From Planctomycetaceae bacterium (GTDB lineage: Bacteria > Planctomycetota > Planctomycetia > Planctomycetales > Planctomycetaceae): a DNA stretch of 64,000 nt. The stretch's first letter is position 1; each line of letters opens with the position of its first letter. Of the stretch, positions 3,342 to 63,302 are shown piece by piece. The translations under genes and the position numbers were made by a program. The stretch lies in NCBI GenBank assembly GCA_019636285.1, contig JAHBXV010000035.1, positions 1-64,000 on the forward strand, read 5' to 3'. Below the pieces are notes generated by a model. The model ran no database searches and had not been told where the DNA came from. It saw only the letters and a list, made by a program, of their open reading frames with translations.

Positions 3342-3450
3342 CGCAATTCCACCCGTGGCCCCGGAGGAGTCGAAAGAGCGTTCCGAGTGTATCCCGTCAG
3401 AACGGAAACGACGAACACTCTCGGGTCGGTCGCCGCATCGTTCTGCCAAG

Positions 3451-32788: not shown

Positions 32789-32865
32789 TTTGCCCTTTTT
32801 GGTTGCGGCGTCCCGAAAAGAGCGTGGAATACTTGAAGGGATCGTTATCTCCTCGCGAGGCCCTA

Positions 32866-34787: not shown

Positions 34788-34869
34788 AACTGGTCCAAGA
34801 CAAAAAACGATTGGTACCGCTGGTCGTAGAGATAAGAAATATCCGTCTAATCCCGGAAGAGATTCTCTT

Positions 34870-39829: not shown

Positions 39830-41317
39830 CTACGGCGCCACGGGCTCGCTGGCTTCGTTCCCTTCATTCCCTTGGGGTCGGATCATTTCAAAGTAGCGGC
39901 GGATGTTTTGCCGGTGGCCCAGCGGGATCGATTCCGCATCGAGCACGGACTCGCTGATCGCTTCGTACTTGTCGACTTTTTCGCGGTACTGGCGAATGGC
40001 TTCCTGGTTTTGCTCGGGGGCCGTGGTCGTTTCGATATCAACGTCCCCTTCGGCCGACTCTTGGCCGGTCAGCTTCATGTCCTTCGCGGACTTGAGCAGT
40101 CCGGTCTTCTCGCCGGGCTCGTTGCCGCTGGCGGCTTGACCCGCCTTGCTGCCGCCTTTCTTATTGGACATGGCCATGGACTGGCTCTGGCATTCCCCTT
40201 CGCATTCGCTTTTACATTCGCTCAGGCATTGGCACTGCTTGCGAAGAAGGTCCGTGAGCTTCTTGCGGCGGCCGGCACTGCGACTTTCGCCGGCGAGCCC
40301 CTTCATGCCTTCGTTGAACTTGCTCTTGTTCCCCTGCCCCAGACCTTCACCGATCTGGCCGATTGCTTCCTTGAGCTGCTTCTTCATCCCGTCGGCCGAG
40401 TCCTGTCGCACCTGCTCAAGCTTCTCCGTCATCGCCCGTTCAGTCTGGCGATCGACTTTGGGAAGTTCCTTCTTTTCCAATTCGTCGGCGGCCTTTTCGA
40501 GTTCGCCATTCGCGAGCGCCTGACCAGCCGATTGCAGCGACTCGGAAAGTGACAACGCCTCGCCGATGCTCTTGAGTTGGGCTTCGACATTCGGATCAGC
40601 CAGTTCCTGCTGCTTGGCCTGCAAGGCGGCTTCCATTTCCGACAGCTTGGCCAGGGCTTCGCGAGGGTCGATTCCGGGCTGCTTGAGTTCCTCGACCTTA
40701 ACGGCCAGTTCCTTCAGCAACTTCTCAATCTCGGGGTCTTTGGCTTGCTTGTTGAACTCTTCGAGCTCTTTCAGCTCCTCCTCGGCACGCGAGGCCTGCG
40801 AATGGACCACGGCGTTGGGCTCCGTGGCCGCGATGGCCACTTCTGGCGCCGGGATCAGGCACATCAGCAAGGTGGCGACAGCGGCAAACACAACGCCAGC
40901 ATGCAGCGACCGTGGCGAGCGGTAGGGAGCGACGGCTTTCACATCGATGTTGGCGACATGCGTCGCGGCGTCGGCGACCTGCAGTTCCTGCAACGGAGTG
41001 AGATTCGATTTGGAAAGGAACGCCCAGGCGGTGGAGACGCGATCCTTGAGCCCGCAGACACCGTCAATCGCGTTGGCGGCTTTGTGAACGGGACGACTTA
41101 GCGCAAAGGCCGCGAGACCTCCCAGCGCCGGACCGGACAGGAGGAGCAGAGCGAAGCTGCCCCAACCGGGGGATGTGATACCTTGGGCAAGGACACCTAG
41201 CACGACCAGACAGGCGAGTATGCTCGACGCACACAATCCCCAGGCGGCGCACTGCCCGGCCCATTGCCATTGCTGCCGGGAATGAACAGCCGACACGCGA
41301 CGCCGAATCGTATCCAT
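39830..41317 (-). CDS. Membrane protein with long coiled coil and a cysteine cluster
   Basis: The 495-residue protein has two N-terminal membrane helices (about 25-48 and 53-73), a third at about 139-157, then a long acidic/lysine-rich helical region (175-345) that is a coiled coil. At 362-376 comes a cysteine cluster with cysteines at 362, 364, 368, 372 and 376 in a Ser/Glu/Lys-rich segment, which could bind metal or cross-link. The tail (about 430-480) is again helical. No family is recognised. It is transcribed with the giant TPR gene, 111 bases upstream, and may be an anchoring subunit. Confidence 0.65.
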   Translation of the reverse strand: MDTIRRRVSAVHSRQQWQWAGQCAAWGLCASSILACLVVLGVLAQGITSPGWGSFALLLLSGPALGGLAAFALSRPVHKAANAIDGVCGLKDRVSTAWAFLSKSNLTPLQELQVADAATHVANIDVKAVAPYRSPRSLHAGVVFAAVATLLMCLIPAPEVAIAATEPNAVVHSQASRAEEELKELEEFNKQAKDPEIEKLLKELAVKVEELKQPGIDPREALAKLSEMEAALQAKQQELADPNVEAQLKSIGEALSLSESLQSAGQALANGELEKAADELEKKELPKVDRQTERAMTEKLEQVRQDSADGMKKQLKEAIGQIGEGLGQGNKSKFNEGMKGLAGESRSAGRRKKLTDLLRKQCQCLSECKSECEGECQSQSMAMSNKKGGSKAGQAASGNEPGEKTGLLKSAKDMKLTGQESAEGDVDIETTTAPEQNQEAIRQYREKVDKYEAISESVLDAESIPLGHRQNIRRYFEMIRPQGNEGNEASEPVAP

Positions 41318-41428: not shown

Positions 41429-44400
41429 TCATGAGGCCGGGCGGATTCCGGGTGAAGTCCCCTCCGCGTCTGCCGCTTTGGGCGGATCGGGCGCGGCCAG
41501 TTCCTGCTCGATTGGAGACGCAACCGACTTCGGCCAGTCTCCCCGAAGGCTGAGGTTTCGGACTCGAGATTTCTGCCGGTCCGCATATCGAAACAGTCCC
41601 AAGAACCTCTGGGATGGCGGTTCCGTCAGGGTAAGACGGGCCGCCTCGACATCATTGATGAGCACCGTCAACTGGTCCCCCGTCAGCCGCAACTGGATCC
41701 GGTTCCAGTCATTCGGCTTAAGCGCCGCGCCGGCGGCTCCTTCGATCGGCACGGAATTGTCAGGGGCAAGGCCGGAACGGTCGAGTTCACCATCGGTCAG
41801 AATGTGCCGGGCGATCCGTTCGGGCGTGATCTGCACGACGGTTCGACCGACCGCCGGGTGGACCTCGAATTCGCCGGGCACATAATACATTTCGTAGTCG
41901 AGTTCACCATCTTCCAGGAGCGGCCGGCGATAGTAGACAAGTGACTGGAGCGATTTTTCAGCCCGATTGATGGCGAGATTGCCGATCAGTTCGTCGGCAT
42001 GGCGAGCCCACGCGGGCTGCTCTGAATTTTGGCCATCGTCGTAATAGCCGGACTGCCGCGAACTGGTGGATTGCGTTCCCAGACTCGCCGACTCTCCGAA
42101 GTAATCGGCGGTCCACATGGCGGATTCAGAATCCTGCAACAGATTGACGGTTTCCGGAACCCGCGGATCGCCAGTAATGCGGAGGTCGTTCACCCGACCG
42201 GCGGACGACGCCAGGGAGGGCTGGAGCACGAGCCAGGGCGACGGAGCGGGATCCGCACGCTGTTCATGAATCCGGACATCGTTCACGAACGTGGTGATGC
42301 GGCTGCCATCGACTTCAATGCGGAATCGGGCCGTTTCACCGTACCCGGGGATCGTCAACGCGCTCCCAACCGGCGAACTGTTGACTGGAAGACGGTAGAG
42401 CAAAGTATTCTTCAGGTCGGGTCCGCCGGGGCGTGCCGCGAAATGACCGTAACCAATCAGCATCTCATCGCGCGGTCCCGTCGACAGCGTACCGTGGACT
42501 TGAAACTGTCCGATGACCGGCGAGCGATAGAAAAGCTGCGACAGCGATTCGCCCGGATGATAGATGACTTCGCCGCGAGTCGCGGACCATTCGCCGGGAT
42601 GGTGGCCATTCGCGCGGGTGAAAGCACTCACCATGGGGACGGATGACCAATGGCGAAGCTCCATGGCGACGCCGGGAGCAGTTGCAACCTGGCGGCCGGT
42701 TAATCCCGTCAAGACTTCGGTCGTGGCGAGCCAGTTGGCGTTCGCCTGCTTGTCTTCGCGAGCCTGCTTGAGAAAAGCCCGCGCGAGCTCATCAGCAGCC
42801 TTCGCGACCGGTCCGGGGCGCTGGCTGGCGATGGTAATCGCCATGACCTCGGGAGCCCGCTGCCCGTCGAGCCCGCCAGACGGGCTGTTTTTCGCACGAA
42901 CTTTCTCAAGTTCCGCCAGGTGCTCAACGGCGGAAGAGTCATCCTGGCGAGCGACATCGATGAGCACGAGTAAGGCTTCGCGACGAGCCGGATCACCAAC
43001 GATAGATTCTGGCGTGAGCGCGCTGACAGCCTGCTTCAGTTCGTCCAGTCGGTTGAGGCGACTGGCAACCTGAACCAGTTCCCAGGCCGGGCAGATGCGT
43101 TCGCCTTCGGCTGACTTTCCGGTCAGCCCAGGTATAGAGCCAGAGGGAGCGATCGGCGCTCGTTGAAAGGCCATGCGGAGATCGGCATGGTCATCGGAAG
43201 GGAGGACCCAGCCGCGCAGCATCTCATACGCAGTGACGTCGTCCTGCTCACGCGCCCGCAATACTACTTCGATCGATCGCGAGGCGGAAACGTCGTCATC
43301 CAGTAGCCGACTTTGCAGGCGGCGTTCCTCCGGAGGCAGCGGTTGCACGAGCGCGAGCAAATCGCCATCGATCTTTTCCGGCCAGTTGCCGGAGAGGACG
43401 ATTTTACGAACCTGGGTTTTGGTCTCTTTCGGGCGGTAAATGCCGACCATCCGCGGATTGTCCGCCTCGATGGGACGCTCGAAAATCAGCGCTCCATTCA
43501 GCGATAGGGAAACCGTTTCTTTGGTTGCCGCGATGGCGACGGTGTTCCAGTCGTTCGCCTTCAACGGCAGCGGTCCGTCGGTGCGAGCGAACGCGGCTTC
43601 CTGAACGGCGTTCTCGGTCGGGACGCCGAGAACGGTATCGTCCCAGCCAGCTTGATTAATCCAGCGCGTCCGGACGCCGTCCGGTTCGAGGATGAAGGCG
43701 AAACGCCCGAAGGTCGGAGCAGCCGTCTGCTCGCCGGGGGCCTGGAAGAACTCGAACTGAACGACCTCGCCGGCATCGAGCGGACGGTGGTAGTAGGTCC
43801 AGCCAGGCTTTGGCTCCTCGCCCAGGCTCTGGCCATTCAGCACGCCGTCTTTCACCGACCAGTGGTACTGCTGCTGGGGATCCCGGGCAACGGGAACTTG
43901 CTCACCGAATGCGTCATAGGTCATGTCGGGTTTTTCGTTCGCCTTCCGCAGCGCGGGTTGCGACTCGCCGAGGAATGACGTCATCCAGCCTTCCATCGTC
44001 GATTCGCCCAGGAGCGCGACTTCCCGGGGAACGCGCGGGTCGCCAGAGAACCGAAGATTGCGGAAACTGCCGAAGGTTGTCTGGCGGGCTTGCAGGTGCA
44101 GCCAGGGGCTGCCTGTGGCGAGTTTTTCGGAATAGACTTCCTGACCATTCAAGAACCACGTCTGGCGATCGTTGGCCACGCGAAGCAGGACGCGATCGGT
44201 GCCGCCGCTTCCGTGCTGGGCCGCGCGGGAACGCGCGATCGACTCGTGCCCCCCCGCGGAATTGATGAACAGCCGCGGACCCGACTGGGTCACGATGACT
44301 CCGCCATAGCCGAGGTCCGCGTGGTGGAAATGGCCCTGAGGCAGATCGATTTCGAGCTGAAAGTCTCCTTCGACCGGGTAGCGGAAGTAGAGCAGACCGC

Positions 44401-47400
44401 CATCGAGACCGCCGAGATGGGCAATCTGGCCTTCGGAGACTGTCCACCACGAGTGGACGTTGTCAGCCCGAGGCGCCCGAGTGAACGCGGGGAACCAGTG
44501 GACAAATTCGGGAAAGGCAATCGAATCCGGACGATTCTCGGCCTGCCTCTGGTGGCGGGCAAATTCGTTCATGATGCGGGGATAGCCATCCAACTGGTCC
44601 CGAGAGCGGGCAAACCTGGAATATTCCGGGAATTCCGCGACCGCGCGAGCTGACAGTGCCGGACAGTTGAGCGCTTCGCGCCAGACAAAATAGTCGACCC
44701 AACTGATCGACTCACGTAGGCTGTTCCCGTTCACCTTGCCGCGTTCAACCCGTGTTCTAAAAAGTTCATCGACGATCGGCGCGGCTTCCTCGGTACGGCC
44801 CGCCCGAATGAGCGCCAGGGCTAGCAGGGAATCTGCAAACGCGACCTTCTTTTCCCGGAGTGGCGCGAGACGCTCGCAGAGTTCGGGCAGAGAGCCGGAG
44901 GCTTCGGCGGCGTCGATCAATTGCATGACATTCGAGAGGGGGCCGACACCCGTCAGTGGCGCGACGTCGATGTCCGCGGTCCGTTCGGCCAGATCCAGAA
45001 AAGCCTGCGGCGGGACCGTCGGAGAAACGGTATCGACGACGATCCGGATGGTTTCCCGCTGCGGCGCGGGAAGGGTCCAATCTCGCAACTGCGTGTAACG
45101 ATCGCTTGCGGACCGGGCAGCCAGACTCAGCGAATTGGCGGCGAGAGCGTTCTTGATCGAAGGGCGACCGTAGTTTTCAAAGTTGGTGTCGGAAGCCCGG
45201 CCGAGATAATCGAGGGAAACGTCAAACGCGCCATTCTCGGCGGCGTCGTTGGCAATCTGAATCCACGTATTCCAAAGTTGATAGGCTCCATAGTCACCGG
45301 AATAGCGGGCGTATTGCTGCTGCCTGGCGTTGGCGAATGAATCGTAGAACTCGCGAATCGCCGCGGTGTGGCCCGACTGTGCGAAATAGCGGTTGAGCTG
45401 GCTGGACAGCGGCCCGAGAGCGATGTTCTGTTCATTGCCGTCGTTCGGTTGAGTCGGGAGAGAGGCCAGCAGAGCCCGCTTGAGCAGGGGGGCCGCTTCG
45501 GCTTTGAGCTCCTTGATCCGGAAGGCTCGAATCGCCGCGTGTGCTGCCAACTGGATTGCCGCCTGCGAAGGAGCGCCGCTCGTGAGCCTGTCCAGTTCCT
45601 TCAGCGCCGCGGTGGCCGCCAGATAATCCTTCTTCAAGAGGGCCTGCTCACAATCGAGCACGGCCGCGGCGACCGAAGTCGGCGGCGACTGGCGGCGGGC
45701 ATCGATCTGCTTTTGCAGATCACTGGTCCGATCGGCGCGATCGGCCCATTTGACGATCTCGATTCCCAGGTTGGAGACAATGTTGCGGCGGAGGCCGGAA
45801 TGATCGGGATACAGCAGAATTTCACCGGGACGACTTGCGGGAAAGACAATCGGTTCGAGCAGGTTGTACACGTCGTCGGGTGGGAAGTCTTCGGGCTCCC
45901 ACTTGTTGACCACCTGTCGGACGGCGATGGCCACTTCGGAGAGAAGTGGATCTTCGGCGTCGGCGGACTGCCCCGGCCTTGTCGGGCGAGCCACTATTCC
46001 TCGCATCGAGGTCGTCTCGGTCGGCGCGTCGGGAACCGGCATACCGCCGGATAGCGCTTCCCGAACGGCCTTCTGAGACAGCGCGGGGAATTTGTTTGTC
46101 GCCGCCGATTTGGCCACAAGCATCGCGATTCGGAACTGTGAGATCGTGAGCGGCGGAATGGCGTTCTTCGACTTGTCGTCGGCCGCTGCCTGTCGCGCGG
46201 ACTGCGACCGCTGTCCGGGGGGGACAACCGCGGTAGCGGGAAATGGCCGCGGAGCGGTACCGACTGTGAGTCCACCGGGAACGGGGAGCCGGGGCGCCGG
46301 CTGGTCGCTGGCGGCGGCAAGCCTTGGCGATGCTTTCGGGCGGACCGTGGCCGACTGGAGAAGTTCGGTCCACATCTGCTCGGCTTGGGGGCGATCTCCG
46401 GTCTTGAGCGCGAGCTTTCCCCAATCATGGAGAAGGGCGCTCGTTGCGTTGCGATCAAGTTGCCGCGCTGCCGCGTCCCGCGCGATGCCGCCCAGTTCGG
46501 TCCGGGCGGGAATCAATTCGGGGGTTGAGCACTCGCGGGCGACCAGCCATAGGCCGATCCACCGCGCCGCCTCGGTTCTCTGACGTGCGTTGGGGCGAGT
46601 TCCGTCGGGAAGCGGCTCGAGTGGATTTCGGCGGATGATTTCCAGCAGGCTGGCGACGTCGCGGGCGAAGTCATCCTCGGAGAGCCGCTTGCTCCAGAGC
46701 GCCGCGAGAATGGCGATCGACAAATCGTCGGGGTACTTGTCGCGCAGGGAGGAGAGATGCCTGGCGAAGGTGACGCGCGCCGCCTCGCCACCGGCAAGCG
46801 TCTCGAACAATTCAGACAGCGGAGTGCGGATGATCGCCGATTCCAACTGCCGCTGGTCAGGCACGATGAGCAGCAAGTCGAGATGAAATCGCGATTCGGC
46901 TGACGATTCATCGACTTGCAACAGTTGCGTGATTGCCTCGTCGATATTGACCTTTTTCAGCGCCGAGAGGGCGGCGGTTAGCCCGTTACGGGCTTGTCGG
47001 ATCTGTTGTTCGACCTGCTGCGCGGCACCGGTGCCATAGACCTGAGATCCGAGCTCGATGCGCTCGGGATGGTTCACCAGGTTCCGGTAGACTCGCAGCG
47101 CGTCGGCCGGAAATTCCGATTTCAGCAGCGAGTTGGCCACGGACATTTCCGTTCGAAGTTGCTGGTACGCCCGATAACTGGGATCGTTCATGCCCTCTTG
47201 AGCATTGGTCTTAAGCGCGCTGAGGAGCACCTCGCGGGCGCGGTCTTTCTCGCCGCGATCCTGGTATAACTTCACCAGCCGCATGCCCGGCCCATACTGG
47301 AAGTCGAGACCCACCTCATTCCGTTTCATCGCCTGTTCGAAGAGCTTGATGGCGAGGTCGCGCGAGGACGCGTCCTGGTCAATCTGCTGGGCCACCAGCC

Positions 47401-50400
47401 ACATGGCGGCCATCGGAATTTCTTCCAGTTTGGCATCGGCCGGGAAAAGCTGCTGGAGCGCGGCGACTCCTGCGTCGCGATGGCCCTCGTGAATATCGAG
47501 CACGGCGATCATCGCCCGGCCGCCGTTCCAGCCGGGCGCTGTGGTGAGACGCTCTTCGACCTGGTTCCGCAGCTTCCGAGCCTGCTCCGATCCCTTCGTG
47601 CCGGATAACAGCCGATCGACCATTCCATTCGCTCTCCCGCCGCTGGAGTAGGAATTGATCTGGTCAAAACCGTACCACGGCTCGGACGCAACCTGGGCGT
47701 CGCTGGGAATCAGACACTTGCTGACAAGATCGAAAACGCGCGGATCCTTAAGCGCGGAATCATCGTGAAGATTCCCGATCAGTTGGCTGCGGTAGCTCGG
47801 GATCTCATTGAAGCACCGCTCGAACAATTGAATGCCGTGTTCGCGGGTCGCCTCCTTCGATAGCAGCGAACTCACGACGTTGATGGCGTAGTAGGGCTGG
47901 CGAAAGCGTTTGAGATCGACCTCCAGCATCGCCTTGCCGAGATCGCCCTCGCGGCCAGCCTGCTGGAAGATGTTCTGGACCTGGTAGAAGTTGTCGCTGA
48001 TCAACTCGGGGTTTTGTTTCAGAAGAACGGCGTACTGGTCGCAGGCCTCGGCCGTCTTGCCCGACTGCTGCAACTGAGTCGCCAGCAGCACCCGCAATTC
48101 CGGAGAATCGGGACGCTGCTCGACCGCGGCCAGCAGCAGTTCGCGGACTTTGTCGCGATCGTTCGCGGCGCCGTAATACTCGATGAGCTGCTCATAGAGC
48201 GGCGCGGCGTTGGGTGCCGCCGCCAGTTGCGTTTCCGTCCGCTCGATAAGCTTTTTCAGGGCGCCGGTCTGATGCAGCAGCTTGAGGGCCTGAAGCCGGG
48301 TGGCCGAGTCGCCGGATGACATGCGACCGCTGGCGATCATGGCCGCCATGGAGGCATTCGGACGCGGCGACCGCTGCAAAATGGAGTGCGCGAGCTGCTC
48401 GGCCATGTCCATACGGCCTTGCCCCTGGTACTGTAACATGAGCGTGAGGAGCGCTGAAGGAGAATTCCCCGAGCGTTTCTGGACGCGGGCGGTGATGGCC
48501 TCGGCCATGTCTTGCAGGCCCAGCCGTTTCATGGTGGCGGCCAATGCCAGTTGCGAATCGGCATCAAGCCGCAAGCCGAACAGGCGCTCGGCGGCGGCGC
48601 GGGCTCGTGCCGTTTCTCCCAGACGTTCGGCGAGTTGCAAGGCGAGCGTCTCGCGCGTCTGGAGCAGCTTCTGATCTCGGGGAACGATCGAATCAACGAT
48701 GGCGAGCGCGGCATCCAAATCGTCAAGCTGCTGATGCATCAGCGCCAGTTCGAGGCGAAATTCCAGATCGTCCGGCACGAGCGCGGCGGCCTTCGCGATG
48801 ATGACGGCCGCCTCGTCCCGTTCGTCCTGCCACCAGAGCGTGTACCCATAAGCCAACTGGCGATAGAAGAGGTCGTCGGGAGGGGCGGTCTCGACCTGTT
48901 TTTTCAGATGGTCCGTGAGATCGCTGAGGACGTCATTGCGACGGAAGACTTCAAAGGCTTGCCGCAGCAGAGTGATCTGGCTCTGGTTGAAATATTCGCT
49001 GGGCGCCGGGTAGGCGAGTTGAATCCCTTGCTGATTCGAGCCGTACCAGTAGTTGATGTACGTTGATGGGCGGGTATTGCCGGGCTGCGATGTTTTTCGC
49101 GAGGAACGACGGATCTTCGCCTCCCGGATTCCGATGTCGCTCGTGACATCGAGTACGTGCAGTAGCTCCGAGTGGCTCTTCTGTTCGGCAAGCTGGCCCA
49201 TCCACGGTCCCAGGGCATAAATCGACTGGGACAAGGGAGAACGCATCTGCTGGCGGGGATTGGCAACGGCCGATTTCGGATCCCGCGCAAGATCGACAAG
49301 AGCCGCCTCCTTCCACCGGTCGATCAGTGGCGGAACGCGGTCGAACAGTTTTTCGGACAAGCACAGAGAAATGGCTCCGACAATCTGCGGGACCGTGTCG
49401 GCCACCTTGAGCTGTTCATCGACGAGCTGATTGGCCAATTCGTCGCGGCCGGCCCAGCGGAGTTCGCGGGCGACCACCGAGACGTTGGCCGTCGAATTCG
49501 CCAGTTGAATGTACTGGTTGCCAACGTATTGATAGGTTACTCCGGTGGATGGCGACGCCTTCGCTTTCGCGGCTTGTTCGCGAAGTGCCGTGTAGCATTT
49601 CAGCATCAGATCGAGATCAGCCTCGGCCAGTGGTGGCTGCTGCTGGTTCCGGGCATTTCGCGAAGAAACCATATTGGCCGGGTCGTACGTCCGCTGGGCC
49701 AGCGATTGCAGGAAGAACGCCTGTTCTTCGGGGCCGCCCGATTCGGCCAGTCTGCGGGCAATGTGAAAGACCTCTTTGTAGTTGTTCTGCAGGTTGCGCA
49801 GATAGAGTTCGTCGTAAGTCGTCTCGCGCGGGGCACCCTCTTCCTGGGCAGCCTTCACGACCGATTCCACGAAGCGATCTTCTTCGCCGTCCGCCTGAGC
49901 GAACTTCAGTTCCCAGCCGATGCAGGCCATCCGGGCCTGAGCCATCGAATCGGGCGCCCAGGGACGTGGCGCGCCGCTCGAGTACGAATAGCGGTCGTAG
50001 TCAATACCGATGGCCTGCCGGATCTGGGAGCCGTTCTGCGAGGTCTGGAGAGGGCTCGGACGTTGCGGCGCCTGAATACTGGCTCCCATCAGATTCGCCG
50101 ACTTGGCTTTTGCCTGGGCCTGTTTGAACTGAGCGGTCGCGCGGACGCCCAGCGTATCGTGCGGCAATTGCAGCGCGAGAATGCGGCGGAAGCGCTCGCG
50201 GGCTTCGTCTTTCTTATTCAGCGAAGCCCAGGCGACTCCTTCGCGGTAAATGAGTTCCCAGTTATCGCGGCTATCCCGCAGAAGCGGCTCCGTGACGGCG
50301 ATCACCGCCTGAAAGCTGCTCGCGCTGAGCAGCGAATCAATGCTGCGCAACAGCCGCGCCGGATCTTCCTCGCGCCGCGTCAGCTTAACGAAAATTTCCG

Positions 50401-53065
50401 TGGCACCCTCGATGTCCCCGCTCGCCTGAAGCAGGCTCGCCATGCGGAATTCGGTCTCGTGGCCGGGAGCGATCGCGACGATTTGCCGCTGGTAGTCGAT
50501 GGCGGCGTCGAAGTCCCGTCCCTGCTCGCAGAGCTTGGAGAGTTGCAACAGCAGTTCGGTGTCGCGCGTCTCCTGGCTGAGAAGACTTTCCAGTTCGGTG
50601 CGCGCGGTGCCGACATCGCCGGCTGATTGATGCGCTTGCGCGATGCAGATGGTCATCATTCGCCGCTGCTCTTCCTCGCGGCGGTCGCGATCAAGCCGTT
50701 CGATGAGCCGTTCGAACTGATTGAGCTGCAAGTGCAGATCGGTCAGCCGCATGATCAGCACGGTCTTGTCGTCGAGCGATTCCGATTTTTCGAAAGCCTG
50801 CCAGTAGACCTGGATCGCTTCATCGGCTTTGAACTGCTCCGCGAGAGCCGCGGCCAACGCCGTGATGAGGTGCGGCTCCCCGGGATTGATGCGCACGGCC
50901 TTGCGCAGGGTTTCAAGGCCCTCGTCCATCTTCCCCAACCGGAAGCAGAGCTGTGCATAGAATTCGTAGTGCGCGGTGTTTCCCGGCGCTGAGAGAATGA
51001 GTTCGCGGCCGGCCGTCAGCGCTTCCTCGGACCGTCCCAGTTGCGATTCGAGACGCGCGACGTTCATGAGATGGTCGCCCCGGGCGCGGCGGTCGGAGGC
51101 GGCAAGCTGTCGAAAGAGGTCGGCAGCCTTCTGAAAGTCGCCAGACAATTCCGCAATTCGTGCTGCGGCGGTCAGGGCCAGCGTCGACTGCGGGCTTTTC
51201 TGAAGCGCAGTGGCAATCGTCTGGCTGGCGTCCGACCACTTGCGGTCGGCCTCGTAATAGCGGGCGAGCGTCAACCACTGCTCAGCGGTAGCGTCGGCAT
51301 TGGCGTGAAGCGCTTCTGCGAGTCTTTCGGTTTCTTCCTCCAGCCGGCGGGCGGATTGAAGAACCGAAATTTTCTGCTTGAGAACCTGTTCCCGCTCATC
51401 GTCGTTGGCCTCCAGAGCTGACGCTGCGGTGTTGTATTCGAGGGCCTTGTCATAGAGTTCAGCGCGGGCGTGATAATCGGCGGCGCGGACCTGCAAACTC
51501 AGATCTTTGGGATCGAGTGCGGCGGCTTCGGCAATGTAGCTGGTGGAATCCTGGGCATACCCGAAAGTGCTGAGCACCTCAGCCACGCGAGAGAGGTTGA
51601 GCGCCGACTTTCGGTCTCCCGCTGCAATCTGCTTCCAGGTTTCCAGCGCTTTCTCAGGCTGCTTCTGGACATGGTAAAACTCGCCGAGATATTCGCGGTA
51701 TTGGGGATCGCTGGGCGCCTGCTCGACGGCCTTCTCGTACAGAGCGGTGGCTTCGTCGTTGAGGTTCGACTGCCGGAACAAGTCGGCGACCTGCGATGTG
51801 GTGAGGGCATCGTCGGGCCGCGCGTCCAGAATCTGCGTCCAGATGCGTTTGGCCTCCGCGACCCGCGCCGTTTGTTCGACCGATTTGTCCTTGAGTACCG
51901 CCCTGCCCCATTCGCGGAGGACATCCGCGTCGCCTGGGGAGGCCTGGGCGAGCAGTCCGTACTGCTGGACGGCCTCGGTGTAGCGCTGGTCTTCGAGCAA
52001 CTGGGAAATGAACGCGCGTCTCAGTTCCGATCGCTTTGGCGCCAGCTTGAGCGCCTTTTCGAGCCATTCCCCGGCCTCGGGAACGCGCGCGGTCGATGCC
52101 AGATACTTGGCCAGACGGGCCATGCCGTCCACATCTTGCGGATGTTTCTCGAGCCAGCCTTGGTAATACTTGACCAATCCGTCCTGGTCGCCCGCACGGA
52201 GGAACACTTCCTCGATCCGCCGCCGGACCTCGCGGTGCAGCCAGCCATCGGGATTCAGATCTCCCAGCAATGTTTCCAAATCGGCAAGTCCGCCCCCGCG
52301 GTTATTACTGCGAATCTTCAGGGCGGCGACCTCCATGCGGTAGGTCGTCTTGCGGTAGTCGTCCTTCACGAGTTCGACGAGTCGCTCATAACGCGGCAAC
52401 GCTTCCGCGAATTTTCCTTCATCGACTTGGGCCACGGCAATCTGTTCGAGCACGCGGGGATCATTCGGGAACTGGGCTTCAAGTCGGGCCCAGACTTTGA
52501 GCGCTTCGTCATCCCGCTGGGCGCGCTGATGCATGCGTCCCAACTGTTGATAAATCTCCAACAGGTCGGCTCGCTCGGGCTTGCGCTCGATGGCACGCTC
52601 CAAAGCCTCGACGGCTTCCTGCGGCTGGCCGATCAGCAGCAGCGATTGTCCCAGGTAATAAGCCGGAAGAGGATCGTCGGGGCGCTTTGCTTCTGCCGCA
52701 CGAAAGGCATCGACAGCGTTGGCATCCGCGCCGCGATGTGCTTCAATCAATCCGAGAATCATCGAAGCCGCGCCTTTATTCCCTTCGTCTCCGGCGCGTT
52801 CACGAAGTTCGGCGACATACTTGTCGAGGCTGCCGAATTCCACATGGAAACCGTATACGCGATCGAACGCAGTGCCCCGCCGCGGATTCTTCTCAAGGAT
52901 GCTGGCGAACCGCTGGGCAATGGCCGCCTGCTTTGCTTCATCGGCGTCCAGATCGACCGCATCGTCAGACTGGGACCACACGGCCGAGCCGCATAGAAGA
53001 AGAATCAGAACCAGGCCGATCGATCCGAATCGGAGCGCCGCAAAGCGCGGCAGAAGAGGTGTCAT
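41429..53065 (-). CDS. Giant secreted TPR protein with DUF1583-type C-terminal modules
   Basis: The 3,878-residue protein starts at ATG 53065 with a signal peptide ('SIGLVLILLLCGSAVWS'), so it should be exported. Residues about 60-1,000 are TPR repeats ('PLPAYYLGQSLLLIGQPQEA', 'DLLEIYQQLGRMHQRAQRDD', 'LLAQASPGDADVLREWGRAV'); more helical TPR-like repeats continue to about 2,800. The C-terminal part has two related beta-sandwich modules of DUF1583 type: the first from about 2,855 ('FPEFVHWFPAF', 'LLYFRYPVEGDFQLEIDLPQ', 'LRFSGDPRVP'), the second from about 3,475 ('LFYRSPVIGQFQVHGTLSTG', 'LRITGDPRVP'). It may form a very large periplasmic or surface assembly scaffold. It is divergent from the MoxR gene. 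Confidence 0.85.
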   Translation of the reverse strand: MTPLLPRFAALRFGSIGLVLILLLCGSAVWSQSDDAVDLDADEAKQAAIAQRFASILEKNPRRGTAFDRVYGFHVEFGSLDKYVAELRERAGDEGNKGAASMILGLIEAHRGADANAVDAFRAAEAKRPDDPLPAYYLGQSLLLIGQPQEAVEALERAIERKPERADLLEIYQQLGRMHQRAQRDDEALKVWARLEAQFPNDPRVLEQIAVAQVDEGKFAEALPRYERLVELVKDDYRKTTYRMEVAALKIRSNNRGGGLADLETLLGDLNPDGWLHREVRRRIEEVFLRAGDQDGLVKYYQGWLEKHPQDVDGMARLAKYLASTARVPEAGEWLEKALKLAPKRSELRRAFISQLLEDQRYTEAVQQYGLLAQASPGDADVLREWGRAVLKDKSVEQTARVAEAKRIWTQILDARPDDALTTSQVADLFRQSNLNDEATALYEKAVEQAPSDPQYREYLGEFYHVQKQPEKALETWKQIAAGDRKSALNLSRVAEVLSTFGYAQDSTSYIAEAAALDPKDLSLQVRAADYHARAELYDKALEYNTAASALEANDDEREQVLKQKISVLQSARRLEEETERLAEALHANADATAEQWLTLARYYEADRKWSDASQTIATALQKSPQSTLALTAAARIAELSGDFQKAADLFRQLAASDRRARGDHLMNVARLESQLGRSEEALTAGRELILSAPGNTAHYEFYAQLCFRLGKMDEGLETLRKAVRINPGEPHLITALAAALAEQFKADEAIQVYWQAFEKSESLDDKTVLIMRLTDLHLQLNQFERLIERLDRDRREEEQRRMMTICIAQAHQSAGDVGTARTELESLLSQETRDTELLLQLSKLCEQGRDFDAAIDYQRQIVAIAPGHETEFRMASLLQASGDIEGATEIFVKLTRREEDPARLLRSIDSLLSASSFQAVIAVTEPLLRDSRDNWELIYREGVAWASLNKKDEARERFRRILALQLPHDTLGVRATAQFKQAQAKAKSANLMGASIQAPQRPSPLQTSQNGSQIRQAIGIDYDRYSYSSGAPRPWAPDSMAQARMACIGWELKFAQADGEEDRFVESVVKAAQEEGAPRETTYDELYLRNLQNNYKEVFHIARRLAESGGPEEQAFFLQSLAQRTYDPANMVSSRNARNQQQPPLAEADLDLMLKCYTALREQAAKAKASPSTGVTYQYVGNQYIQLANSTANVSVVARELRWAGRDELANQLVDEQLKVADTVPQIVGAISLCLSEKLFDRVPPLIDRWKEAALVDLARDPKSAVANPRQQMRSPLSQSIYALGPWMGQLAEQKSHSELLHVLDVTSDIGIREAKIRRSSRKTSQPGNTRPSTYINYWYGSNQQGIQLAYPAPSEYFNQSQITLLRQAFEVFRRNDVLSDLTDHLKKQVETAPPDDLFYRQLAYGYTLWWQDERDEAAVIIAKAAALVPDDLEFRLELALMHQQLDDLDAALAIVDSIVPRDQKLLQTRETLALQLAERLGETARARAAAERLFGLRLDADSQLALAATMKRLGLQDMAEAITARVQKRSGNSPSALLTLMLQYQGQGRMDMAEQLAHSILQRSPRPNASMAAMIASGRMSSGDSATRLQALKLLHQTGALKKLIERTETQLAAAPNAAPLYEQLIEYYGAANDRDKVRELLLAAVEQRPDSPELRVLLATQLQQSGKTAEACDQYAVLLKQNPELISDNFYQVQNIFQQAGREGDLGKAMLEVDLKRFRQPYYAINVVSSLLSKEATREHGIQLFERCFNEIPSYRSQLIGNLHDDSALKDPRVFDLVSKCLIPSDAQVASEPWYGFDQINSYSSGGRANGMVDRLLSGTKGSEQARKLRNQVEERLTTAPGWNGGRAMIAVLDIHEGHRDAGVAALQQLFPADAKLEEIPMAAMWLVAQQIDQDASSRDLAIKLFEQAMKRNEVGLDFQYGPGMRLVKLYQDRGEKDRAREVLLSALKTNAQEGMNDPSYRAYQQLRTEMSVANSLLKSEFPADALRVYRNLVNHPERIELGSQVYGTGAAQQVEQQIRQARNGLTAALSALKKVNIDEAITQLLQVDESSAESRFHLDLLLIVPDQRQLESAIIRTPLSELFETLAGGEAARVTFARHLSSLRDKYPDDLSIAILAALWSKRLSEDDFARDVASLLEIIRRNPLEPLPDGTRPNARQRTEAARWIGLWLVARECSTPELIPARTELGGIARDAAARQLDRNATSALLHDWGKLALKTGDRPQAEQMWTELLQSATVRPKASPRLAAASDQPAPRLPVPGGLTVGTAPRPFPATAVVPPGQRSQSARQAAADDKSKNAIPPLTISQFRIAMLVAKSAATNKFPALSQKAVREALSGGMPVPDAPTETTSMRGIVARPTRPGQSADAEDPLLSEVAIAVRQVVNKWEPEDFPPDDVYNLLEPIVFPASRPGEILLYPDHSGLRRNIVSNLGIEIVKWADRADRTSDLQKQIDARRQSPPTSVAAAVLDCEQALLKKDYLAATAALKELDRLTSGAPSQAAIQLAAHAAIRAFRIKELKAEAAPLLKRALLASLPTQPNDGNEQNIALGPLSSQLNRYFAQSGHTAAIREFYDSFANARQQQYARYSGDYGAYQLWNTWIQIANDAAENGAFDVSLDYLGRASDTNFENYGRPSIKNALAANSLSLAARSASDRYTQLRDWTLPAPQRETIRIVVDTVSPTVPPQAFLDLAERTADIDVAPLTGVGPLSNVMQLIDAAEASGSLPELCERLAPLREKKVAFADSLLALALIRAGRTEEAAPIVDELFRTRVERGKVNGNSLRESISWVDYFVWREALNCPALSARAVAEFPEYSRFARSRDQLDGYPRIMNEFARHQRQAENRPDSIAFPEFVHWFPAFTRAPRADNVHSWWTVSEGQIAHLGGLDGGLLYFRYPVEGDFQLEIDLPQGHFHHADLGYGGVIVTQSGPRLFINSAGGHESIARSRAAQHGSGGTDRVLLRVANDRQTWFLNGQEVYSEKLATGSPWLHLQARQTTFGSFRNLRFSGDPRVPREVALLGESTMEGWMTSFLGESQPALRKANEKPDMTYDAFGEQVPVARDPQQQYHWSVKDGVLNGQSLGEEPKPGWTYYHRPLDAGEVVQFEFFQAPGEQTAAPTFGRFAFILEPDGVRTRWINQAGWDDTVLGVPTENAVQEAAFARTDGPLPLKANDWNTVAIAATKETVSLSLNGALIFERPIEADNPRMVGIYRPKETKTQVRKIVLSGNWPEKIDGDLLALVQPLPPEERRLQSRLLDDDVSASRSIEVVLRAREQDDVTAYEMLRGWVLPSDDHADLRMAFQRAPIAPSGSIPGLTGKSAEGERICPAWELVQVASRLNRLDELKQAVSALTPESIVGDPARREALLVLIDVARQDDSSAVEHLAELEKVRAKNSPSGGLDGQRAPEVMAITIASQRPGPVAKAADELARAFLKQAREDKQANANWLATTEVLTGLTGRQVATAPGVAMELRHWSSVPMVSAFTRANGHHPGEWSATRGEVIYHPGESLSQLFYRSPVIGQFQVHGTLSTGPRDEMLIGYGHFAARPGGPDLKNTLLYRLPVNSSPVGSALTIPGYGETARFRIEVDGSRITTFVNDVRIHEQRADPAPSPWLVLQPSLASSAGRVNDLRITGDPRVPETVNLLQDSESAMWTADYFGESASLGTQSTSSRQSGYYDDGQNSEQPAWARHADELIGNLAINRAEKSLQSLVYYRRPLLEDGELDYEMYYVPGEFEVHPAVGRTVVQITPERIARHILTDGELDRSGLAPDNSVPIEGAAGAALKPNDWNRIQLRLTGDQLTVLINDVEAARLTLTEPPSQRFLGLFRYADRQKSRVRNLSLRGDWPKSVASPIEQELAAPDPPKAADAEGTSPGIRPAS

Positions 53066-53293
53066 GACGCAGGTCCCCTCTAGCACAGATTTCAGTCGCG
53101 CAGGAACGCCGAGCGATTGCCCTCAGGAAATTGTTTTACCTCCCCTTCCCCGTATTGGATAGACAACGCGTTCACTATTTCCAACAATCAACCACCTGCT
53201 GAGTGCGCGGAGTTCAGGGCGATTAAAAGAGCAGGCAACCGACCAGAGGGTTAGCGGGACCAGATTCACAACAACGTCCATGAAAGGGCGCGC

Positions 53294-54325
53294 ATGAGTG
53301 TTGGTACTGTTACTGATGAACTGAAATCGCAGTTGGAGACGTTTCGTCAGGACTTCAAAGCCCTACGGACGGAAATCTCCAAAGTCATCGTCGGGCAGCA
53401 GGAGATTCTCGACGACATGCTGACCGCGCTCGTTGCCGGCGGACACGTGTTGCTCGAAGGGGTGCCAGGACTCGGGAAAACCCTGACCGTGCGGACGCTG
53501 GCAGACGCGCTGCATCTCGACTTTCGCCGCATTCAGTTCACGCCCGATCTCATGCCGGCCGACCTGATCGGCACGAATATGGTGCTGGAGACCGAGGGGG
53601 GCGGAAAGGCGTTCCAGTTCCAAAAAGGGCCAATCTTTTCGAACGTGCTGCTGGCGGATGAAATCAACCGTTCCACGCCGAAAACGCAGTCGGCACTGCT
53701 GGAAGCGATGCAGGAACACTCGGTGACGGTCGCCGGGATCACGCACCGGCTGAGCGAGCCGTTCTTCGTGCTGGCGACGCAAAACCCGCTCGAAATGGAA
53801 GGAACCTATCCCCTTCCGGAAGCGCAGCTCGACCGGTTTTTCTGCAAACTTCTGGTGAAGTACCCCAAAGCCCACGAGCTCGAAACGATTCTCGACCGGA
53901 CGACAGAGTCGACCACGACCAGCGCCAGTGCCGTGCTGACCGGCGAGCGGATTCTCGAAATGTCGCGGCTCGCCCGGCAGATTCCCATTGCCGACGAAGT
54001 CCGGCGTTACGCCATCGCGCTGGTCCTGTCCACCCATCCCGATAACGAGATGGCAACGCGAACGACACGCAAATATGTCCGTTATGGTGCCAGCCCGCGC
54101 GGACTGCAAGCATTAATCTTAGGTGCCAAGATCAAGGCGCTCCTTGATTCCCGCTATCACGTGGCTCGCGATGACTTGCGGGCCATGGCAAAGCCCGTGC
54201 TCCGGCACCGTATGATCCTGAACTTCGAAGGTCAGGCGGAAGAAGTCAGCACCGACTCCGTCATCGACCAGTTGATCCGGGAAGTCCCGGAGACGATCGC
54301 GACGCCCGTGGCTGTGCCAGCCTGA
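53294..54325 (+). CDS. moxR: MoxR-family AAA+ ATPase
   Basis: The 343-residue protein has Walker A GVPGLGKT at 56-63, Walker B 'VLLADEIN' with D122-E123, sensor/pore motifs '[20 protein letters not shown]' and the C-terminal lid ('[15 protein letters not shown]'). MoxR ATPases are chaperones that act with VWA-domain proteins to mature or remodel membrane complexes. It is the first gene of the plus-strand cluster that continues with DUF58 and two VWA proteins, the classic MoxR arrangement. The 228-base gap to the divergent giant gene should hold both promoters. Confidence 0.93.
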
Positions 54326-54408: not shown

Positions 54409-55287
54409 ATGTCGTTGTTCCCGAGTGATTTTCTGACGCGGGTGGAATATCTGTCGATCATTTCGCGTCGCGTCTTCCGGGGATCCTTATTGGCGCAGCG
54501 ACGGACCATGCAGCTCGGCTCGGGCATTGAGTTTTCCGACCATCGCGAGTATGCCGCTGGGGACGACTTCCGTTATCTCGACTGGAATATCTATGCCCGC
54601 CACGGCGATCTGCTTCTGAAGAGGTTCCAGGAAGAACAGGATCTGCACGTTTACCTGCTGCTCGATTGTTCTCGCAGCATGGCATTCGGCGATGGCCGGA
54701 AATTCGACCTGGCCCGCCAGTTGATCGCCGCCATCGCCTATATCGCGCTGGCTGATCTCGACCGGATCTCGGTCATGGCGTTCACTGATGGCGTGGTCGG
54801 CGAATTCCCGCTGACTCGCGGCAAAGCGAGGATTCTGCAGTTGATGTCGTTCCTGGAGCGAATGCAGACCGGCGGACAGGAAACCGACGTCGGCGCGGCT
54901 GTCCAGGGTCTGTTGCATCGAGGCTCGCGTCGGGGAATGGCCGTTCTCGTCAGCGACCTGTTCGACCCACGGGGGTTTCAGCGCGGACTCGATCAACTCC
55001 GGCACCGGCGCTTCGATGCCCATGTGTTGCAACTGTACCGTGCTGAAGAAGCCGATCCGGGTCTCCTGGGAGACGTTGAACTGGTCGACATCGAGAACGA
55101 CTCGATCCGCAAGGTGACGGTCACCGAACGGAATTTGCGTTCTTACCGGGAACTCTTCACGGCTCATCAGTCGTCCGTGCGGGAATACTGCCGTAACTAC
55201 GGACTCGGCTGCACACAAGCAGAGGCCAGCGTACCGTTCGATGAACTGATTTTGCGAATGATGCGAGCCACGCAGGTGCAGCGATGA
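54409..55287 (+). CDS. DUF58 (degenerate VWA) protein
   Basis: The 292-residue protein has the DUF58 signature 'GDDFRYLDWNIYARHGDLLL', followed by 'VYLLLDCSRSMAFGDG', in which the VWA metal site is partly kept (DCSRS). DUF58 proteins sit with MoxR and BatA-type genes and probably bridge ATPase and membrane VWA partners. An acidic C-terminus is present. It lies 83 bases after moxR and 52 before the next gene, on the same strand. Confidence 0.9.
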   Translation: MSLFPSDFLTRVEYLSIISRRVFRGSLLAQRRTMQLGSGIEFSDHREYAAGDDFRYLDWNIYARHGDLLLKRFQEEQDLHVYLLLDCSRSMAFGDGRKFDLARQLIAAIAYIALADLDRISVMAFTDGVVGEFPLTRGKARILQLMSFLERMQTGGQETDVGAAVQGLLHRGSRRGMAVLVSDLFDPRGFQRGLDQLRHRRFDAHVLQLYRAEEADPGLLGDVELVDIENDSIRKVTVTERNLRSYRELFTAHQSSVREYCRNYGLGCTQAEASVPFDELILRMMRATQVQR

Positions 55288-55339: not shown

Positions 55340-57259
55340 ATGAGTTTCGGCGTGCCGACCGCGCTGTGGTGGTCGCTGCTGGTGATCCCGGTGATCGCCC
55401 TGTACATCCTCAAAGTCCGGCTGCGACGGATGCCGACGTCCACGACGATGTTTTGGAACCAGATTTTCGACGAGAAGCCACCCCGATCAATCTGGGAAAC
55501 GCTGAAGCACTTGCTCTCGCTGCTGGCTCAACTTGCGATCCTGGCGTTCCTCGTGCTCAGCGTCGCCGATCCCTACCTCCCAGGCCAGCTCAAGGCTTCT
55601 CGGCGGATCGTGGTCATCGTCGACAACAGCGCGAGCATGCGCGCGATCGATGTCGAGCCATCACGGCTGGCGGCCGCGAAACAGAAGGCCGTCGCGCTGG
55701 TGGATGGTCTCCGCTTCGGCGATGAAATGGCAGTTGTATTGGCGGGGGACCATCCGACGGTCGCCCTCGGCATGAGCGGTCACGCGCCGACACTCAAGCG
55801 AACCATCGAGGCGATTGTTCCGACCGATTGTCCGTCAAGCATCCAGCCCGCGATCGATCTTGGACGACGCCTGATCGGAACGCACCCCCACGGACAACTC
55901 GTGGTCCTCACGGACGGCTGTTCCCCCGGGAGCGAAGCGCTGCTTGGCCAGAAAGACGTTTCGCTGGACATTATCGGCACGCTGGCAGGCAACGTCGGCA
56001 TCACGCAGTTTCAGGTCCGTCGCAGCCTCATCGATCCGCTCGGCTATGAAGTCCTGACGGCCGTCTCCAATGCTTCTGACGGTTCGGTGGAAGGTCGCCT
56101 GGAACTCGAACTCAACGACGTCACCGTCGACATTCTGCCCCTCAAGCTCGCACCCGGCGAAACCTGGACCCGATCGCTGGAAAAGACATCGCTCGAAGGG
56201 GGACGACTGACGGCCGCGCTCACAAAGATGACGTCGCCGGCCGCACAGGGAAGCGAAGCAACGCCGTTCCAGGATCCGCTCGCCAGCGATGATCGCGCTT
56301 ACGCAATTCTGCCCCCCCGCAAGATCCAGAACGTGCTGCTTGTAACGCCCGGCAACCTGTTTCTGCAGAAAGTCTTCGAGGCGAACCGCCTGGTGAACCT
56401 GACCGTCGTGAAAGAGCTGCCGACCGAGTGGCCACCCGACACGATCATCGTGTTGCATCGTCTGGTTCCCCAGAAGCTGCCGCCCCGCGACGTCCTGGTC
56501 ATCGATCCCGACGGCCCCAGCGAAGCCTGGCAACTCGGCGACTTGCTGGAGAACCCGATCATCACGCAGCAGGACGCCGCATCGCCGCTGATGACTCATC
56601 TCAAGCTCGACAACGTCACAATGCCCAAAGCCCGACGGCTGACGTTCACGGATCCTCCGCACATTCTGGCAGGGGCCGTCTCCGGAGAGCCGGTCTATGC
56701 GTCGTTTCCGCGAACTTCGCCTTTCAAAGGCCTGGTCCTGCCGGTCAGTCTCGATGAGGGCGACCTCACGTTTCGGACGGCGTTTCCCATCATGGTCGCC
56801 AACGCACTGAGCTGGTTCGGCGGATCGTCCGGCGAACTGCAACCCGCCGTGGCGACGGGGGCGATCGTTCATCTCGCGCTGGAAGGGGTCAAACCGGATG
56901 GTCACGACCCACTCAAGCTTCTCTCTCCCAATGGTGCGACAAAACCGGTGATTCTCGCCCCCGCGAGCGAGGGTGACAACAAGCCACCGGCTGCGACCAT
57001 CGGTCCGCTCGAAGAGATCGGCATCTGGGAAGTTGGCGAGGGGGATACCGATCCGAAAGTGGTCGCCGCCACCGCGGTGAACCTCTCCAACCCGCTTGAG
57101 TCCGATCTCCGCGCGCCGGACAGCGTGCGAGAAGCCGTCGAGCGGCCGCTTCATGCGGCAGCGTGGTTCACGCGGCCCCTGTGGTACTACCTGGCGATTC
57201 TGGTGTTAAGTCTGGCGACCGTGGAGTGGTTCCTCTTCCAACGAAGGTGGATTCGATGA
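55340..57259 (+). CDS. BatA-type membrane VWA protein
   Basis: The 639-residue protein begins with the BatA-type N-terminus: two hydrophobic helices ('FGVPTALWWSLLVIPVIALY', 'HLLSLLAQLAILAFLVLSVA'), then a VWA domain whose metal site is DNSAS at 95-99, with 'VVLTDGCSPG' about 100 residues later, and a long periplasmic part. A last helix ('PLWYYLAILVLSLATVEWFL') anchors the C-terminus. It is coupled to the next VWA gene by ATGA at 57256-57259. Such proteins support membrane complexes or stress tolerance, but the specific job here is unknown. Confidence 0.88.
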   Translation: MSFGVPTALWWSLLVIPVIALYILKVRLRRMPTSTTMFWNQIFDEKPPRSIWETLKHLLSLLAQLAILAFLVLSVADPYLPGQLKASRRIVVIVDNSASMRAIDVEPSRLAAAKQKAVALVDGLRFGDEMAVVLAGDHPTVALGMSGHAPTLKRTIEAIVPTDCPSSIQPAIDLGRRLIGTHPHGQLVVLTDGCSPGSEALLGQKDVSLDIIGTLAGNVGITQFQVRRSLIDPLGYEVLTAVSNASDGSVEGRLELELNDVTVDILPLKLAPGETWTRSLEKTSLEGGRLTAALTKMTSPAAQGSEATPFQDPLASDDRAYAILPPRKIQNVLLVTPGNLFLQKVFEANRLVNLTVVKELPTEWPPDTIIVLHRLVPQKLPPRDVLVIDPDGPSEAWQLGDLLENPIITQQDAASPLMTHLKLDNVTMPKARRLTFTDPPHILAGAVSGEPVYASFPRTSPFKGLVLPVSLDEGDLTFRTAFPIMVANALSWFGGSSGELQPAVATGAIVHLALEGVKPDGHDPLKLLSPNGATKPVILAPASEGDNKPPAATIGPLEEIGIWEVGEGDTDPKVVAATAVNLSNPLESDLRAPDSVREAVERPLHAAAWFTRPLWYYLAILVLSLATVEWFLFQRRWIR

Positions 57260-63155: not shown

Positions 63156-63302
63156 TATCCGGCTCCCACCGCGCACGCTTTTGTTGAAGTCGCATTTCCG
63201 AGCAACGACAGCTTCGTTAAGGAGTACTCCAGGAACCTTTCGCGGACGAAGGCATAAGCTCAACAGACCGGCTGCCGAGAGCAAGCATGATGATACCAGA
63301 AA

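Follow-up and report, generated by a model that had tools for sequence, protein, structure and literature searches.

A giant tetratricopeptide-repeat protein of Planctomycetia pairs with one MoxR subfamily and is a candidate exported component of a Bat-like system

The first 64,000 nucleotides of contig JAHBXV010000035.1 of a Planctomycetaceae bacterium (GenBank assembly GCA_019636285.1; this whole stretch is referred to here as the window) contain an open reading frame (ORF) on the minus strand that runs from an ATG at position 53065 to a stop at 41429 and encodes a protein of 3,878 amino acids, the giant. Which cellular system would a protein of this size, built from a tetratricopeptide repeat (TPR) array and C-terminal beta-sandwiches, serve? 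A first-pass annotation, made from the sequence alone, linked the giant to a sigma factor operon on one side of it. The better supported partner is the divergent operon on its other side, absent from that annotation, which encodes a MoxR-type AAA+ ATPase, a DUF58 protein, a BatA-like protein and another VWA protein. Across the genomes examined, the giant pairs near-exclusively with one MoxR subfamily, and we consider it probable that it serves as an exported component dedicated to a single MoxR-DUF58-BatA-VWA (Bat-like) system in Planctomycetia.

Members of the giant family were called with a profile of the TPR core, at E ≤ 1e-30 in a set of 59 genomes that includes the window's own and at E ≤ 1e-60 in a set of 248 genomes of the class, and were found in 18 and 56 genomes, respectively. 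Each of the 59 genomes has between 5 and 17 MoxR matches at E ≤ 1e-60. Among the matches listed, a MoxR with at least 65% identity to that of the window is present in 17 of the 18 giant-bearing genomes and in none of the 41 others (descriptive Fisher value, 6.5e-14), the best MoxR of the giant-free genomes among these matches reaching 61%; the MoxR of G007 reads 62% in a longer alignment and that of G020 is cut by a contig end. In a MoxR tree of 73 sequences, 54 sequences from giant-bearing genomes or loci form one branch (support 100/97), apart from 19 others, which represent 16 of the 41 giant-free genomes plus 3 paralogues of giant-bearing genomes; L158 and G023, being incomplete, are not in the tree. 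Similarly, in the 248 class genomes, the giant and the operon's VWA protein (at least 43% identity) are found together in 51, the giant only in 5, the VWA protein only in 2 and neither in 190 (p 1.5e-44, again descriptive). Within the genera g47, g49 and g91, giant and operon are present or absent together in all 14 readable genomes.

The same pairing is apparent in the gene order. A search with one conserved peptide pattern, which as a single pattern cannot find every member, yielded 112 confirmed places, the best 80 of which correspond to 79 loci, all in planctomycete records; these loci overlap with the genome sets (e.g., L053/G003, L070/G033, L106/G039, L105/G020 and L102/G037). A divergent MoxR gene (at least 60% identity) lies just upstream of the giant homologue in 43 of the 79 loci, or in 39 of the 65 whose 5' end is closed and whose upstream sequence spans 1,300 bases or more, and all four genes of the MoxR operon are present in 28 loci. 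The head-to-head arrangement is replaced in two Pirellula records (L064 and L065) by a co-directional moxR-duf58 pair that follows the giant within ~100 bp, and in L102 MoxR lies 6.3 kb from the giant. Genomes G036, G010 and G028 possess both the giant and the MoxR, yet no TPR core is found within 8-9 kb upstream of the latter. As a control, we inspected 20 stretches around other MoxR genes (52-62% identity; 17 giant-free genomes and 3 paralogues), none of which contains the TPR core, with DUF58 and BatA matches in 13, a VWA match in 13 and MoxR alone in 5. The other planctomycete MoxR operons consist of the same gene families but differ in having a VWA gene before MoxR and in their sequences, which are 52-62% (MoxR), 33-38% (DUF58), 22-26% (BatA) and 27-31% (VWA) identical to those of the window.

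As proposed at first pass, the giant is a single gene: one uninterrupted minus-strand frame was found, with no internal stop or frameshift that would split it. An alternative GTG start at 53086 corresponds to 3,885 amino acids, but the ATG is the more likely start because an AGAGGGG stretch located between the two precedes the ATG and follows the GTG; residue numbers given below nevertheless follow the GTG numbering. A search of the 59 genomes with a C-terminal slice gave matches in 15 genomes, the window's own counted, among them nine frames of 3,541-4,451 amino acids in eight genomes, again including the window's own; the other matches are cut by contig ends or belong to shorter module proteins with another plan (1,844 amino acids in G024). 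Given these frames of like size and the homologous frames of three isolates, measured from stop to stop (3,808 codons in Pan216 and 3,875 in Limnoglobus roseus, both on complete chromosomes, and 4,177 in the draft genome of Rhodopirellula solitaria), the giant ORF is not an assembly slip. The only strongly hydrophobic segment of the protein is N-terminal (residues 15-33), and in 71 of the 73 homologous frames with an uncut 5' end a hydrophobic stretch lies ahead of the conserved region. This hydropathy pattern is in line with the signal peptide noted at first pass, so that the giant probably carries a Sec signal peptide.

Most of the protein, ~2,850 residues, is a TPR/alpha-solenoid. Many TPR families of Pfam match between residues ~85 and 1000, followed by weaker, partly sub-cut-off TPR matches up to ~2250. 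Two segments were modelled with AlphaFold (residues 1000-2180 and 2701-3885, with input alignments of 37 and 36 sequences). The model of the first is one helical array of 62 helices (predicted local distance difference test score, pLDDT, 84.6; predicted template modelling score, pTM, 0.75) with helical-repeat scaffolds (Ski3, Ctr9, IFT-A and OGT) as its best PDB matches, in agreement with the huge TPR array that had been read from the sequence. In an alignment of nine full-length members, residues 101-1000 of the TPR core are the best-conserved part of the family, with fractional identities to the window's giant of 0.34-0.54 per 100-residue block. The model of the second segment (pLDDT 85.1, pTM 0.83) consists of the solenoid end, a sandwich pair, a helical linker and another sandwich pair. 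Accordingly, the two C-terminal DUF1583-type modules of the first-pass annotation were correctly recognized, but each is actually a pair of concanavalin-like sandwiches, DUF1581 followed by DUF1583_N, resulting in four sandwiches (S1 to S4). In Pfam, DUF1581 matches at residues 2970-3047 and 3589-3667 and DUF1583_N at 3098-3237 and 3713-3853, well over the curated cut-offs (110.3 vs 27 and 225.1 vs 22.9 bits, respectively). Given that S1 resembles S3 (34% identity, 2e-19) and S2 resembles S4 (26%, 4e-15), the two-sandwich unit was probably duplicated within the giant; the profiles of the DUF1581 and DUF1583_N types are also related to each other (hhalign probability 99.8). Pfam does not describe a function for DUF1581 and DUF1583_N; in the giant, the only DUF1583_N carrier in the window's genome, they cap the TPR rod.

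The operon proteins resemble those of the Bat systems of Bacteroides, Leptospira and Borrelia. The MoxR-type ATPase matches AAA_3 at 6.5e-63 (210.9 bits) and also, far below that, PF20030 bpMoxR (40.7 vs 27 bits); the second protein matches the DUF58 family PF01882 at 1.1e-39 and the third the BatA N-terminal domain PF07584 (35.5 vs 25.9 bits), and the DxSxS motif is kept in all three VWA proteins. The start of the VWA/GATase1-like gene, ATG 57256, was placed by frame reading and overlaps the BatA stop. Bat systems likewise combine MoxR, DUF58, BatA-type VWA membrane proteins with DxSxS and a TPR component; the difference is that the TPR component here is a separate protein of 3,878 amino acids with lectin-like modules, as opposed to the TPR of BatB/BatC. 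The correspondence of the TPR components is one in kind, the giant being adjacent to the operon and co-occurring with it, and does not imply kinship with the TPR of BatB/BatC. For Leptospira and Borrelia, it has been proposed that the VWA and TPR parts of Bat proteins contribute to the formation of a large (periplasmic) complex; in Borrelia BB0173 the VWA domain is on the periplasmic side, and a chaperone activity on the VWA metal site has been postulated for MoxR (PMC3557215, PMC5700661); the function of Bat proteins has been elusive, and a role in aerotolerance was not upheld in Leptospira biflexa (PMC3557215). More generally, MoxR-VWA pairs are believed to work by client binding through the VWA protein and remodelling of the complex by MoxR (PMC7159879). 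The MoxR-vWA ternary conflict systems described in the same work resemble the present case in that a MoxR-VWA pair is joined by an extra dedicated third protein, but the window's operon is of the BatA/DUF58 type with a probably exported partner; no VMAP, iSTAND, FtsH or beta-propeller was detected with Pfam among the four operon proteins and a 495-amino-acid protein encoded behind the giant, the rest of the genome not having been searched for these.

If the giant is indeed a dedicated component of this system, it would be exported to the periplasm or the cell surface. There, its TPR rod, which we estimate to be probably tens of nanometres in length, would scaffold or dock to the inner-membrane VWA proteins. 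The VWA domains of the BatA-like and VWA/GATase-like proteins would face the periplasm, by analogy with Borrelia BB0173. The terminal sandwich pairs would hold envelope or extracellular polysaccharide, and MoxR with its DUF58 VWA co-factor would spend ATP on assembly or remodelling of the complex. The giant would then fill the role proposed for the TPR of BatB/BatC in Bat systems. A more far-reaching version, which we consider unlikely as it stands, is that a VWA complex of the inner membrane, powered by ATP through MoxR/DUF58, assembles and regulates a TPR rod that spans the enlarged periplasm and grips wall or surface polysaccharide via swappable lectin-like tips of 0 to 5 sandwiches, an undescribed, Planctomycetia-specific envelope-spanning machine; an enlarged periplasm is reported for Planctomycetales and Pirellulales (PMC7716846).

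Several observations weigh against the assignment of the giant to the Bat-like system. Given that a genome-wide search for BatD (PF13584) found nothing at E ≤ 0.001, with a positive control in Bacteroides ihuae, we call the operon Bat-like and not a Bat operon proper. Export of the giant is predicted from hydropathy, and sugar binding by the sandwiches from their fold. Adjacency is not universal: 33 of the 79 loci have no MoxR in the stretch covered, some of these being paralogues and some contig ends. The pairing does not require the sandwiches, since zero-sandwich versions of ~2,250-2,320 amino acids adjoin MoxR in L109, L117 and L118, and sandwich modules also exist without the core, as in G017, where nine module matches were found and no TPR core. 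The MoxR matches were listed down to ~E 1e-101, and giant-free genomes could therefore hide weak partial copies; G023 combines a weak giant match (8.5e-51) with a MoxR of 56% identity. The 43% cut-off for the VWA protein was set after viewing the list, and G114 and G231 were added by eye; the giants without a close VWA partner are those of G219, G181, G193, G162 and G204 (the last two have VWA proteins of 37-39% identity), where G219 has a giant fragment only and six other listed members of its genus, g34, have both, and the VWA proteins without a detected giant are those of G225 and G231. Joint presence and absence by genus was read from the three genera where both kinds of genome are visible. 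Finally, because the genomes are related, the Fisher values overstate independence, and the p-values are descriptive.

Among the competing explanations, the one that survives best, although we consider it rather less than probable, is that the giant is a client, a surface or adhesion protein whose size calls for a MoxR-VWA chaperone of its own to fold, export or assemble it, so that the operon only delivers it. MoxR ATPases have been described as chaperone-like in the maturation of dedicated complexes (PMC3893208), co-occurrence is equally expected for a client, and the C-terminus varies in its number of modules (0 to 2) and in whether a DUF1583 tail is present, next to a conserved N-terminal TPR core, as would an exposed variable tip. 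However, the TPR array, that is the docking surface, and not the tip is best conserved, and the zero-module versions still have MoxR alongside. Furthermore, MoxR and DUF58 look cytoplasmic, given that the former has no hydrophobic segment and the latter a marginal internal one only, whereas the giant looks exported.

The C-terminal sandwiches could also be enzymes similar to 3-keto-glycoside hydrolases or hydratases, making the giant a wall- or substrate-tethered glycan-degrading machine, a reading that is compatible with the scaffold role and that we regard as improbable. Over the full length of the giant, the 3-keto-disaccharide hydrolase family PF06439 (DUF1080) scores 43.6 bits against a cut-off of 26.8, but its best stretch spans only profile positions 116-186 of 187. 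Foldseek searches with the two-module model gave low template modelling scores because the model is multi-domain, and a list that includes unrelated sandwich- and repeat-fold proteins; we therefore used VIA-align rows, which mainly test the last pair. The best structural matches, nearly all of them to this pair, comprise an endo-levanase chain (7znr, C-terminal part), 3-keto-glycoside hydratases, DUF1080 proteins and CBM66 (Z 13.0-14.8 over 146-167 aligned residues, at 7-18% identity). The top matches include hydratases and DUF1080 proteins (9fbe, Z 14.7; 3hbk, 14.2; 3imm, 14.0), but CBM66 scores equally well, its structure 4azz sharing the beta-sandwich fold of S4 at Z 14.2 (root-mean-square deviation 3.0, 151 aligned residues), and W, G, P and N make up most of the invariant positions in A2. 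This fold family covers sugar-binding modules and enzymes alike, and the fold of the sandwiches fits either. A co-occurrence brought about by common ancestry or neighbourhood co-transfer, with no functional tie, is very improbable: neighbouring genes can be lost or moved jointly and many positives fall within few families, but the pairing persists where the genes are apart (G036, G010, G028), the arrangement is reshuffled between divergent and, in the Pirellula records, co-directional, and presence and absence coincide in the readable genomes of three genera.

With the giant as a probable component of the Bat-like system, the spread and variation of its family can be considered. The view that such a gene is rare holds in so far as the distribution is patchy, but the family is wide in the class (the 56 of 248 genomes given above). 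In a phylum-wide sample of 294 genomes, 9 had TPR-core matches, of which 4 are strong and lie in the window's own family, its own genome included, and the remaining 5 are weaker and fall outside the class. At least one DUF1583_N is present in 44 of the 79 loci, with two modules in 37 and one in 7 (two of the latter, L102 and L124, are truncated where the stretch ends); many of the 35 loci without DUF1583_N end before the C-terminus. Of the 53 frames closed at both ends, 37 comprise at least 3,200 amino acids and 11 module-free ones 2,240-2,348, measured from stop to stop. More than 150 amino acids follow the last module in 17 of the 44 loci, 13 of which are two-module versions, the tail of L102 consisting of linker and a partial second module. 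All four tails that were scanned (L051, L053, L058 and L070) match PF07622 DUF1583, a fifth sandwich-type domain, which the window's giant lacks behind its second module.

Schlesneria genomes contain several giant paralogues (L069-L071, L074, L076-L079, L094, L096 and L125), only some of which lie beside MoxR and which include sandwich-free versions of ~2,300 amino acids. In G023 (C39:62000-95000; L139-L140), a diverged giant with a 3,766-amino-acid frame lies ~10 kb from a diverged MoxR-DUF58-BatA-VWA operon (62/37/30/38% identity), possibly an intermediate or a sister system. Rhodopirellula, Limnoglobus and Schlesneria, which also carry the giant, are ordinary budders and are not known to bud laterally. 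A link to lateral budding, considered for the carriers Kolteria novifilia Pan216 (L106) and Candidatus Laterigemmans baculatus (L119), both of which have the giant beside MoxR and are named as lateral-budding (PMC12288469), was dropped in view of those ordinary budders. The same source counts giant genes in planctomycetes, Pan216 included, where the homologue of the window's giant adjoins the MoxR operon; neither 'TPR' nor 'tetratricopeptide' occurs in its main text. The giant was also considered as a surface layer (S-layer) protein since Pan216 has an S-layer; no evidence for this was found, the published S-layer candidates not having been compared by sequence.

The sigma operon (32767-39780, plus strand) encodes an extracytoplasmic function (ECF) sigma factor, FecR, a WD40 protein (gene at 34729), a DUF1559 protein with an N-methylation motif and a DUF1583 protein. 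The same five genes are found in the same order in G001, where no giant was found, and in G003, on a contig other than that of the giant, with no match to the TPR core or MoxR near the operon in either stretch at E ≤ 1e-10; the operon is thus a unit of its own. Nor were the sigma factor, FecR or DUF1583 matched in 13 stretches from relatives, 10 of them with the TPR giant, although this is a partial test as several have little downstream sequence, which also applies to the 79 loci. The shared surface structure suggested by the first-pass annotation is therefore unsupported as a system. Its observation that the last gene of the operon encodes the same sandwich type stands for the DUF1583 (PF07622) tail of relatives' giants, to which the protein is homologous (single-target hidden Markov model, HMM, E 7e-13; hhalign probability 94), but the similarity to the sandwiches of the window's giant is weak at best (4.6 bits to the DUF1581 type and none to DUF1583_N by HMM; blastp E 0.004 to S1). 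This gene (38935-39780) is the only PF07622 match in the window's genome. Its location within 5 kb of the sole DUF1583_N gene looks like a coincidence, given G001 and G003. Gene fission, with 38935-39780 as the lost DUF1583 tail of the giant, was rejected as a simple reading because orthologues of 60-65% identity lie in the same five-gene operon in G001 and in G003, where the giant has its own tail (L053).

The 495-amino-acid protein encoded behind the giant has no Pfam or NCBIfam family over the cut-off; its gene may belong to the giant/MoxR system because homologues recur in 24 of the 79 loci and immediately follow the giant, in the same orientation, in 5 of these. A WD40 gene lies behind the giant on the same strand in L073, L084, L088, L098, L108 and L113; its product is 25-31% identical to the window's WD40 protein, and WD40 repeats match easily. 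Elsewhere in the window, an ORF of 513 amino acids (61950-63491, minus strand) looks by eye like a TPR protein and seems to carry a membrane segment at its C-terminus. The coordinates of the giant, its parts and the adjacent genes are given in Table 1.

Table 1. Features of the giant gene and its neighbourhood in the window (positions counted from the first nucleotide of the window).
Feature	Coordinates	Strand	Basis
495-aa protein, three hydrophobic segments, 111 bp behind the giant	39830..41317	-	hydropathy
Giant ORF: signal-peptide-like start, TPR/alpha-solenoid, two paired-sandwich modules	41429..53065	-	ORF, Pfam, models
Sandwich S4, DUF1583_N copy 2 and partial PF06439 match	41522..41947	-	Pfam, structure match
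Sandwich S3, contains DUF1581 copy 2	42092..42529	-	Pfam, model
Helical linker between modules	42542..43354	-	DSSP of model
Sandwich S2, DUF1583_N copy 1	43370..43807	-	Pfam, model
Sandwich S1, contains DUF1581 copy 1	43862..44431	-	Pfam, model
Presumed solenoid continuation, residues 2181-2850	44537..46546	-	2701-2850 modelled helical; 2181-2700 inferred
Continuing alpha-solenoid, residues 1000-2180	46547..50089	-	AlphaFold model
N-terminal TPR core, residues 85-1000	50087..52834	-	Pfam, alignment
Probable Sec signal peptide, single hydrophobic stretch	52970..53065	-	hydropathy, 71/73 homologous frames
Divergent intergenic region, 207 bp, giant GTG to moxR	53087..53293	.	sequence
MoxR AAA+ ATPase, AAA_3 and AAA_lid_2, Walker A GVPGLGKT	53294..54325	+	Pfam, motif
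DUF58 protein, VWA DxSxS motif	54409..55287	+	Pfam, motif
BatA-N and VWA membrane protein, DxSxS, three hydrophobic segments	55340..57259	+	Pfam, hydropathy
VWA/GATase1-like membrane protein, two DxSxS motifs, three hydrophobic segments	57256..59958	+	Pfam, hydropathy

In the open-licence literature accessible to us, we found no description of the pairing of the giant with the MoxR operon. MoxR operons of this general type occur in more than one version in planctomycetes, and in the genomes examined only one of these versions carries the giant partner. The role of Bat and MoxR-VWA systems is unsettled, and in one subfamily there is now a single, easily followed, probably exported partner of ~0.4 MDa, which turns the question of the MoxR target into a direct co-purification and deletion experiment. 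For the planctomycetes, a family of very large proteins thereby gains a probable system and a probable compartment.

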